Virus record (IMG/VR): IMGVR_UViG_3300039159_000623
Location: 1 to 24,426 of that record
Length of the DNA: 24,426 nucleotides
DNA from: a virus
Direction: 5' to 3' (one strand)
The translations under genes were made by a program, and so were the position numbers. This document shows, in pieces, positions 10,856 to 16,974 of this stretch. The number at the start of each line of letters is the position of its first letter. The stretch's first letter is position 1. The notes below the pieces were generated by a model, which did not search any database, had not been told where the DNA came from, and saw only the letters and a program-made list of their open reading frames with translations.

Positions 10856-11440
10856 TTACATGAAGTCGTCTAGACCGCCAGCTTTGTCTGCCTTCTCAGG
10901 TTTTTTGGATATCATGGCCTCAACTTCTTCCTTACCCAAGCTCTGAATAAATTCAGTCAGATTGAGTCGGAACTCTCCCGCATCTTCATCTTGAGTGCTG
11001 AATGATTCCAGATCGGCCGAGTAGATCATGGCTCGTTTGATACGGGTCTGCTTGGCCTCAACATTGATCCGGTTGATATAGGCAAAGTGGATTGCCTGAG
11101 TGAAGTAACTCAATGCCGAGGTGGGCTTTCCAGTTTTTTCACTGATTCGAGTCGGATCGAACGAGCGTACATATTTTAGGCAGACCACCACACCGTCACC
11201 GATCATTTCATTCACGAAACTATAGCCCCGGAAGTTGAATTTCATCGCCACACCCTTTGCGATGTTGAGAAAACATTCGCCGAGATAGTTGGAAATGCCA
11301 GGTACTTCCTTACCTGCGGCTTCGGCCTCCTTGCATTGTTTCCTGTAATCTACCAGGGCAGCATGCATCTGATCCTTATCCAGATAGTATCTTGGATTTT
11401 TTGGATCGACTGGGGGTTTGATTTTCGGTTCAGTTTTCAT
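10856..11440 (-). CDS. 55: Late-transcription sigma factor gp55
   Basis: gp55 is the phage sigma factor that directs host RNA polymerase to TATAAATA late promoters when bound to the gp45 clamp. The protein is 194 aa (T4: 185). The core KGVAMKFNFRGYSFVNEMIG and the following IHFAYINRINVEAKQTR segment match the sigma region 2-like part of T4 gp55 ([20 protein letters not shown] and QACFNAFVQRI). The last residues, GGLDDFM, are placed like the clamp-binding tail of T4 gp55 (SLDFLYE). The ATG at 11440 has no Shine-Dalgarno sequence; the leader instead carries ATCACCTCC. Its early-type promoter lies at 11470-11498. Late boxes found in this window fit its role. Confidence 0.92.
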   Translation of the reverse strand: MKTEPKIKPPVDPKNPRYYLDKDQMHAALVDYRKQCKEAEAAGKEVPGISNYLGECFLNIAKGVAMKFNFRGYSFVNEMIGDGVVVCLKYVRSFDPTRISEKTGKPTSALSYFTQAIHFAYINRINVEAKQTRIKRAMIYSADLESFSTQDEDAGEFRLNLTEFIQSLGKEEVEAMISKKPEKADKAGGLDDFM

Positions 11441-11556: not shown

Positions 11557-11610
11557 ACCTTTAGGTGGTTCCGGTAGTTGCTGCTGCTGCTGTTCGTAAT
11601 GCCTTCTAGC

Positions 11611-11826
11611 CTACTTTGCTGGCGTTCCGTATAGCTTTTGCTGAGCATCAGTCTGGTGGCATACCAGATAGTTATCCACGATTACTTTGGCGGCACCAGA
11701 GAGTTTAACTCCTGAAGCTTGCCCGGCGGTTGCATCAGCACTTCCGGTGGCTGGGGGAAGGATGCCCTGAGCTGCGGTGTCGTGGAGCAGCCAACGAGTA
11801 GGATAATAGTTATAAATGATACAATT
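11611..11826 (-). pseudogene. Start-less i-spanin (Rz) C-terminal remnant beneath the o-spanin gene
   Basis: This minus-strand frame opens after a TAA at 11827-11829, lacks any start codon, and ends at TAG 11611. It reads RWLLHDTAAQGILPP, then AGQASGVKLSGAAKVIVDNY and LVCHQTDAQQKLYG. That is the typical C-terminal end of an i-spanin: LHD, then a small-residue linker, then S-x-x-LS-A-x-x-VI-x-x-NY-x-x-C. The intact i-spanin upstream ends with the same pattern (LHDYAVR, then IPLSSATAVITSNYLTCKKT). Rz1 lies in the +1 frame relative to this remnant, as in lambda. I read it as the tail of a former Rz in which this Rz1 was once nested. No other gene occupies 11441-11681. Confidence 0.65.
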
Positions 11827-11834
11827 TTAATCAT
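11682..11834 (-). CDS. Rz1: o-spanin (Rz1-like outer-membrane lipoprotein)
   Basis: This 50-aa protein has a lipoprotein signal with lipobox LLVGC (Cys16) after MIKIVSFITII. The 35-residue mature part is proline-rich (FPQPPEV, QPPGKL, VPPK). Small size, lipid anchor and proline content are the hallmarks of Rz1-type o-spanins. With the i-spanin it would bridge the periplasm and fuse the two membranes at the last step of lysis. The ATG at 11834 overlaps the i-spanin stop as ATGA. The arrangement is therefore adjacent rather than nested, but a remnant Rz frame still runs through this gene. Confidence 0.85.
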   Translation of the reverse strand: MIKIVSFITIILLVGCSTTPQLRASFPQPPEVLMQPPGKLQELNSLVPPK

Positions 11835-12445
11835 AAGTTATCTGAATTATATAATCTCTGCTGATCCCTTATCCAATTTTGCAAAGATTCCAATTGAATT
11901 TCCGTCTTTTTACACGTTAGATAGTTTGATGTGATGACGGCGGTCGCCGAAGATAGTGGAATTGAGCTTATCTGGTTTGATGAATCGTTTGGTGCTGGCG
12001 GTGTCTCTACTCTAACTGCATAATCGTGGAGAATTACAAAACCATTTGGTAATGGAAACTTAGCATCAATCTCCGGGGTGATGAATTTATCGACATAGAC
12101 TGTTTTGAACTCCGTTTTAATCTTTTCCACTGTTTTCACACGATCCACATACATCACGACCGTATCAGTAGTTATATTGGCCGCGGCTGCCTCGAGAGAT
12201 GCAATCTCCAGAGCTTGCTCTGTGAGCACGAGTTGCAGTTTCCTATTTTCCACTTCCTTGCCCGCGTAGAAGGTAAAGAACAGAACCAGGCCAATACCGA
12301 TGGCCATAGCGGGAATCTTGTACGCGAATGAGGGCAGAAACAAACTCGCGGCAATCGCCGCCAAGCCTAGCACAATACCCGGAGTAACCAGAGCATAGAT
12401 CACCTGGTCGGTGAACGAGATGAAGGAGGCAAGAAAACTTAGCAT
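11831..12445 (-). CDS. Rz: i-spanin (Rz-like inner-membrane protein)
   Basis: The protein is about 204 aa from ATG 12445. Two hydrophobic segments (about residues 15-37 and 44-62) precede a periplasmic part with a helical, charged stretch (KEVENRKLQLVLTEQALEIA). The C-terminus carries the i-spanin pattern FVILHDYAVR, IPLSSATAVITSNYLTC and LESLQNWIRDQQRLY. Most i-spanins have a single membrane segment, so the second one is unusual. The open frame extends to a TTG at 12472, but the ATG sits in an ATG-to-TAA overlap of 7 bases with the upstream gene, which I take as the start. It is followed directly by the o-spanin. Confidence 0.82.
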   Translation of the reverse strand: MLSFLASFISFTDQVIYALVTPGIVLGLAAIAASLFLPSFAYKIPAMAIGIGLVLFFTFYAGKEVENRKLQLVLTEQALEIASLEAAAANITTDTVVMYVDRVKTVEKIKTEFKTVYVDKFITPEIDAKFPLPNGFVILHDYAVRVETPPAPNDSSNQISSIPLSSATAVITSNYLTCKKTEIQLESLQNWIRDQQRLYNSDNL

Positions 12446-12741
12446 GTTACTGGATATGGATTTGGAATCCAATTACCTGCGCCCCGGGGCTGCATGAAAT
12501 TTGGCTGAGTGTACCGAGCGGGCTCGGTAAAAATATCCCTTGGCCTAAAGATAGGGGCAGTTTCAGTAGCGGTGTGCCTGTTCAACTCCGCGGCCAAGGC
12601 TCGAGCCTCTTGCATAGTGAGGGTGATTGTAGTACCCTTTACTGTTATCGTGACGAAAGATGTAACTTCCGCCGCGGGTTCAGCGTGGTTGCTCATTTTG
12701 GTGGGGCTCATCAAAAATTCACTCGAAGTGTGTGTAATCAT
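12439..12741 (-). CDS. Hypothetical protein with proline-rich C-terminus, 100 aa
   Basis: I do not recognise this protein. The middle part (SFVTITVKGTTITLTMQEARALAAELNRHTA) forms a beta-beta-alpha unit like small 'TLTxEEAxALxxxL' phage proteins. The end (PNFMQPRGAGNWIPNPYPVTC) is rich in Pro and Asn. The frame opens at ATG 12756, but the ATG at 12741 is preceded by AAAGGA at good spacing, so I prefer it. The gene overlaps the i-spanin start by 7 bases and may be expressed with the lysis genes. Confidence 0.7.
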   Translation of the reverse strand: MITHTSSEFLMSPTKMSNHAEPAAEVTSFVTITVKGTTITLTMQEARALAAELNRHTATETAPIFRPRDIFTEPARYTQPNFMQPRGAGNWIPNPYPVTC

Positions 12742-16181: not shown

Positions 16182-16550
16182 TTAGTTTGCCAACCACTGC
16201 CTAACAGTCTCGCCAAGCCCCGTTACTAGAATCAACAACAAGGCGCCAACACCCCATTTTATGATCACCTCGGAGACATTTTTCTTGTAATTTTCAACGA
16301 TATTAGCCTCATTTTCTAATTTGATGTGAGACTTCCGATGCCCGTCATAATCTGGGGTACCTAGATCATTGATCACAAAGGCGGAATCATGCGACTTTAG
16401 TGTAGATTCAATGGCTCGCGTACGCTCATTGATCTGAGTTATAACATTGAGAAGATCTTTGTTAGACGGGGTGTTCAATTTATCAAACTCCCCATCTAGA
16501 GAAATACGACTCTCATGGTCCTGATTTTTTTCTTGCACTTTGAATACCAT
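16182..16550 (-). CDS. Tail-anchored membrane protein, XhlA/holin-accessory-like
   Basis: From ATG 16550 the protein is about 122 aa: a long charged helical region with heptad-like spacing (LLNVITQINERTRAIESTLK) followed by one C-terminal membrane segment (about 100-118, IIKWGVGALLLILVTGLGET). This is the layout of XhlA-type haemolysin or holin-accessory proteins, though sequence identity is not evident to me. The frame is open to TTG 16592; neither start has a good ribosome binding site. It overlaps the end of the preceding membrane-protein gene by 38 bases. Confidence 0.6.
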   Translation of the reverse strand: MVFKVQEKNQDHESRISLDGEFDKLNTPSNKDLLNVITQINERTRAIESTLKSHDSAFVINDLGTPDYDGHRKSHIKLENEANIVENYKKNVSEVIIKWGVGALLLILVTGLGETVRQWLAN

Positions 16551-16974
16551 GGTAGAGAATAATAGGGCGAAGCCAAACCCATAAAGCCCCAAGTGTGAGG
16601 GCTATTTCACCAGAAATTTGCGCTGGTGGTGGAGTGACTGAGAAAAATATTGTTAGAATCATGATTGCCCAAATCATCGCGCTGATAAATGCGAAAAATG
16701 ACGCTATGGTTGTATGATATCTATCCGTTGCAATAATGTAAAATTGAAAAATGCTAATGCCAAGAAAGACAAAAGCAAGGGTTTCCTCAGACATAATCTC
16801 ACGAATCTCTATATAGTAAGGTTGATCGAAGACGGTGCCGGGCCAGATCAAAAGAACAAACCAAAAGAACTCTGCTACACCAAGTAGAATTCTCAACAAG
16901 ACTAGATCAGAATCGAATAAAGCAGATGTTATTGTATCTACCGTCTTTTCTTTTTGTACTGAGAAAATTGACAT
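16513..16974 (-). CDS. Four-helix integral membrane protein
   Basis: The 153-aa protein has four hydrophobic segments (about residues 22-46, 66-84, 89-113 and 124-143) with short polar loops and a basic C-terminus (SARKKSGP). It lies between the NlpC/P60-like gene and the tail-anchored membrane protein and is cotranslated with both. A holin or other inner-membrane role is possible; holins are usually smaller with one to three helices, so this is a guess from context. The ATG at 16974 follows the upstream stop by one base. Confidence 0.65.
   Translation of the reverse strand: MSIFSVQKEKTVDTITSALFDSDLVLLRILLGVAEFFWFVLLIWPGTVFDQPYYIEIREIMSEETLAFVFLGISIFQFYIIATDRYHTTIASFFAFISAMIWAIMILTIFFSVTPPPAQISGEIALTLGALWVWLRPIILYHGIQSARKKSGP

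Follow-up and report, generated by a model that had tools for sequence, protein, structure and literature searches.

We analysed a window of 24,426 nucleotides, the whole stretch of DNA studied here (positions 1 to 24,426 of IMG/VR virus record IMGVR_UViG_3300039159_000623), and found a separated pair of spanin genes that very probably (about 0.87) derives from a nested pair and has left a relic Rz tail under Rz1. The record is a T4-like phage. Directly observed were the homology of the frame in the shadow of Rz1, its register, the nested relatives, an upstream Rz tail without Rz1 and an empty site in close relatives; from these we infer the separation event itself, and the direction of change, from nested to separate, is supported. 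The locus is known from one virus record which, as far as our tools show, has no end repeats and no isolate behind it, and we counted this against the explanation. Searches of phage records, viral contigs and related loci did not turn up the arrangement in another genome, and two class-based draws, each of about 370-385 genomes, returned few family members and no locus with two tails.

Organisation of the spanin locus

All features around the spanin locus lie on the minus strand (Table 1), a point absent from an earlier reading of this DNA made from its letters and open reading frames (the sequence-only reading).

Table 1. Predicted features of the spanin locus and its flanks, in window coordinates.
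Feature	Position	Strand	Basis or remark
Rz, intact i-spanin	11831..12472	-	213 aa from TTG; phrog_4952 profile
Rz1, o-spanin lipoprotein, own separate gene	11682..11834	-	50 aa, lipobox LVGC, Pro-rich
Start-less shadow frame, read as relic of a second Rz tail	11611..11826	-	family homology 11787-11641
Relic part past the Rz1 stop (VIVDNYLVCHQTDAQ...), free of Rz1 constraint	11626..11681	-	
ATGA, Rz stop (TGA) overlapping Rz1 start (ATG)	11831..11834	-	sequence
Intergenic DNA common to the window and spanin-less L139/L140	11441..11622	-	local alignment
gp55-like late sigma factor, downstream flank	10856..11440	-	66% identity; common to L139/L140
Upstream flanking gene, 105 aa	12439..12756	-	positional counterpart in L139 directly before gp55

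The upstream Rz matched the phrog_4952 profile with an E-value of 2e-28 over positions 28-167 of 171, which covers most of the length of the family. An alternative in-frame ATG start lies at about 12445, the N-terminus is hydrophobic, and the family tail corresponds to 12044-11831. The closest relative found was the Rz of viral contig L001 (36%). The N-terminal part of the window protein (12472-12260, minus strand) carries two hydrophobic stretches (about residues 25-47 and 52-70) instead of a single anchor; the N-terminus of the L001 Rz looks similar, and a weak match to a holin PHROG (E 0.11) falls within the same region of the window protein.

Rz1 has the characteristics of an o-spanin, namely a lipoprotein signal with its lipobox and a short mature part. 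Its matches to PHROG Rz-like spanin families were 4.8e-4 and weaker, and a profile built from the Rz1 proteins of nested relatives recognised it with an E-value of 2.5e-11. It is 45% identical to the nested Rz1 of Pseudomonas phage Bise, and its best tblastn match was the Rz1 of Caulobacter phage Cr30 (46.5%, E 3e-3). The Rz and Rz1 frames overlap by four bases only, a separated architecture; the available text of Kongari et al. 2018 (PMC6139136) counts an 8-bp overlap as separated. Since the stop-start pair is not accompanied by a clear ribosome site ahead of Rz1, as judged by eye, Rz1 probably depends on the translation of Rz, and the overlap suggests translational coupling of the two genes.

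Homology points to a lysis function for the pair. The upstream gene would make the inner-membrane spanin Rz, and the downstream gene, translated from the stop-start overlap, the outer-membrane lipoprotein Rz1; together they would bridge and fuse both membranes at lysis, as other spanins do. Two overlapping ORFs for small membrane proteins (153 and 136 aa; 16182-16974, minus strand), located about 4 kb upstream of Rz, could be candidate lysis or holin genes.

An i-spanin tail in the frame under Rz1

The shadow frame consists of 71 open codons preceded by TAA and ended by TAG, with no ATG, GTG or TTG among them. The sequence-only reading had located this start-less frame correctly and had rightly placed Rz1 in its +1 register, as Rz1 codons begin one base later. 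It had proposed a search with the fossil translation, and this search returned the i-spanin family phrog_4952, the same family as the upstream Rz (E 8.5e-9; residues 14-62, profile positions 108-154 of 171). Among phage records, tblastn matched the frame to nested LysB/LysC pairs of Burkholderia, at best with an E-value of 1e-2, and, at E 0.3, to Pseudomonas phage Bise. When all six frames of the window were scanned with a tail profile derived from relatives only, the tail of the upstream Rz scored 67.6 bits and the shadow frame 49.9 bits; the next best frame reached 5.0 bits.

Frames are coupled in nested genes, including the nested relatives, so that part of the likeness to Rz could be forced by Rz1, and a conserved Rz1 protein might by coding constraint or chance generate an Rz-like frame; some residues, such as the LHD under the lipobox, are indeed partly forced. 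The controls used a tail profile of 29 relatives from which the window was excluded. The part of the shadow under Rz1 scored 28.0 bits, higher than all 3,000 synonymous recodings of Rz1 (3.7 +/- 3.5, maximum 25.8). The likeness extended past the Rz1 stop, where the stretch from 11684 to the end of the relic, constrained by no known gene, scored 11.1 bits; the highest of 3,000 shuffles reached 7.3. The match to the phrog_4952 tail therefore exceeded both chance and the Rz1 constraint. This source of the shadow was rejected, each half at a level of about 1 in 3,000, and is in our view extremely improbable.

The relic retains LLHDTAAQG and NYLVCHQT. The claim that it carries the full i-spanin C-terminal signature was correct for the LHDxAA...NYxxC part; the closing LxxLQxWI segment is absent, and from 11622 onwards the codons are homologous to intergenic DNA that flanks the site in relatives without the pair. 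A functional i-spanin is thus not encoded here: there is no start, no front half with the transmembrane segment and no last segment. With the start and the front missing, the shadow is presumably untranslated. Frameshifting or an unusual start could nevertheless use it to make an Rz-tail peptide or an Rz1-tail hybrid: the frame has stayed open, its part past Rz1 still scores, and the Rz1 frames of Pseudomonas phages PAJU2 and FBPa42 run into the Rz tail, so tail transfers do occur in the family. Against such a use stand the lack of start codons, the stops on both sides, the loss of the final segment and the complete upstream Rz, which renders the shadow unnecessary, and we consider it very unlikely.

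Nested relatives, an empty site and the source of the second tail

A +1 ORF that ends inside Rz and whose lipobox falls on the same Rz codons was present in 82 of 82 related Rz loci with a recognisable motif (5 from phages or viral contigs, L001, Carl1, AP3, Bise and Pluto, and 77 from bacterial genomes). The lipobox was recognised by pattern in 81 of them and by eye in L131, likewise nested, where YGC occupies the position. The Rz/Rz1 pair of phage Cr30, which we take to be T4-like, is nested too, as are pairs in Smp131, Siara and Bixiavirus phages. Because Rz1 is nested in all 82 related loci, in the same +1 register and at the same lipobox position, the Rz1 of the window was most probably once nested as well. 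The family match, the null distributions and these nested relatives agree with the proposal that Rz1 formerly lay in an Rz whose tail is the shadow, and the comparison with related phages that had been suggested as a check, L001 and Cr30 included, gave nested pairs of that register and lipobox position. A second tail was absent from all 99 loci with a tail match.

In two Pseudomonas phages, FBPa42 (L154:851-1316) and PAJU2 (L155:893-1370), the Rz1 frame runs on into the Rz tail (LSGVAETV.SNYAACSANTEQLKALQEYI). Their Rz is shortened, as if an indel had detached the tail from the i-spanin and joined it to the o-spanin, and a single frame matches both the Rz and the Rz1 profiles.

The upstream Rz of the window has no nested o-spanin, although all 82 surveyed phrog_4952 relatives do; nesting is a trait of these relatives and lies outside the definition of the family. 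The +1 frame of the upstream tail contains several stops and no lipobox cysteine and scores at the level of the null, and no ghost of Rz1 was found in that tail (p 0.30 and 0.58).

Close relatives of the window, the records L139 and L140 (73% in gp47, 66% in gp55), keep its gene order with no spanin between the 105-aa gene and gp55. The intergenic DNA in common with them resumes at 11622, on the last codons of the relic (local alignment score 79, compared with 26 +/- 3.4 for shuffles), and the spanin segment therefore has its 3' junction there. It was either inserted in the lineage of the window or lost in that of L139/L140. In the 65 kb L139 record, searches detected no phrog_4952-type member elsewhere and, by lipoprotein pattern, no spanin candidate. 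An AGC repeat (cagcagcagcagcaac) at 11575-11600 directly follows the relic and is longer than the matching stretch of L139. Just upstream of the spanin-less site, a gene of L139 (L139:4149-4799, minus strand) resembles, by eye, a GIY-YIG homing endonuclease; the available text of PMC6139136 links a GIY-YIG gene to spanin separation in T5-like phages.

The sequence-only reading had attributed the loss of the old Rz front to replacement by an adjacent-type Rz. We did not retain this part, since the upstream Rz is itself a member of phrog_4952, whose 82 surveyed members are all nested, and its tail groups as sister of the relic; for the same reason, a partial duplication, or recombination of two related nested pairs, is an equally good history.

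The extra tail may have arisen by partial tandem duplication of the phage's own nested pair, in which the segment with Rz1 and the Rz tail was copied and Rz1 was then lost from the upstream copy and Rz from the downstream one, a history to which we give a little less than an even chance. The window Rz tail and the relic tail were sisters in every tree tried, against 25-33 other tails (UFBoot 89-96, SH-aLRT 61-92), although these trees rest on about 74 columns and have long branches, which could attract each other. The UFBoot/SH-aLRT supports were 95/92, then 89/79 when the C-terminal end was removed, 92/89 when long rows were left out, 96/92 under a simpler model and 93/61 after four phages had been added. 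This sisterhood favours duplication, as does the membership of both tails in one family in which L001 and Cr30 are nested; duplication is also easy at such a size, as argued for the reverse transition in the available text of Kongari et al. 2018 (PMC6139136). However, the DNA of the two tails shows no excess similarity (score 20 versus 22 for the recoded null) and the upstream tail has no Rz1 ghost, which makes a recent in-place duplication unlikely, and the relic core, with a G+C content of 56%, differs from the Rz tail, with 39%.

The same mismatch of the two tails in composition and DNA speaks for recombination, in which the complete Rz of one lineage was joined to a tail with Rz1 that stemmed from a different nested pair within the family. 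The relic is 46-52% identical to some prophage tails and 39% to the window's own tail, and the empty site in L139/L140 implies gain or loss of the whole spanin segment as one unit. The sister grouping of the tails argues against this history, and no donor was found in 50,697 phage records or in viral contigs. At the DNA level the relic resembles nested relatives (scores up to 73), a resemblance that is inflated by common Rz1 coding and does not count as evidence for recombination, since Rz1 is encoded in those relatives too. An Rz1 tree for placing the donor had a support of 12/0 with one row, L158, wrongly trimmed. Recombination thus also falls just short of even odds, and we regard the two histories as about equal.

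Under a nested origin of the separated pair, which we prefer, the Rz1 gene would have come from a nested Rz/Rz1 pair, and the DNA under and just past Rz1 would be the tail of that former Rz, deprived of its front, start and last segment and no longer translated. Either a partial tandem duplication or recombination with a related nested pair would have supplied the extra tail; afterwards the upstream copy would have kept Rz only and the downstream copy Rz1 only. That un-nesting took place by partial duplication and complementary loss, with the lost frame still readable, we propose tentatively, at rather less than even odds. The sequence-only reading had called the locus an intermediate between nested and separate architectures: the direction is supported, and the term is fair only insofar as the relic has not yet been deleted.

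Comparison with known spanin systems

According to the available text of Kongari et al. 2018 (PMC6139136), which covers 528 two-component spanin pairs, spanin families mix overlapped and separated members and none mixes embedded members with either; its authors conclude that embedded pairs arose from primordial separate genes, propose duplication and deletion as the route, and report that embedding brought no functional gain relative to a synthetic pair of separated Rz and Rz1 genes. Spanins are grouped by architecture in a 2025 survey of lytic proteins (PMC12596118), and a term search of its accessible text found no embedded-to-separated transition; most subscription papers lie beyond text search. 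The window locus looks like a case of a family that mixes embedded with separated members. It would be a member of its family that departed from the embedded arrangement, the relic fixing the direction of change, and would indicate that nesting can be undone with both proteins kept. If duplication and complementary loss are true, this would be a natural un-nesting of overprinted genes, opposite to the route proposed for spanins. An i-spanin tail read in the frame behind that of a separate o-spanin provides a search rule by which the frequency of such un-nesting could be estimated.

The nested LysB/LysC pairs of the Burkholderia phages KS5, AP3, Mana and Carl1 resemble the window in their phrog_4952-type i-spanin, +1 register and lipobox codons, and their Rz1 is similar. 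In these phages one Rz tail serves both frames, whereas in the window the functions are on two tails. In Cr30 and L001 the nested pair is followed by another short gene with a primase gene nearby, a gene neighbourhood unlike that of the window. Separated i- and o-spanin genes are also found in T4 (pseT.3/pseT.2). Separate or barely overlapping genes and a change of architecture within a family are likewise described, in the available text of PMC6139136, for T5/Shivani, DFL12phi1/EE36P1 and Jersey/FSL_SP-031; unlike the family of the window, these comprise overlapped and separated members only and no embedded ones. A relic i-spanin frame under the o-spanin, described in that text for none of its families, distinguishes the window.
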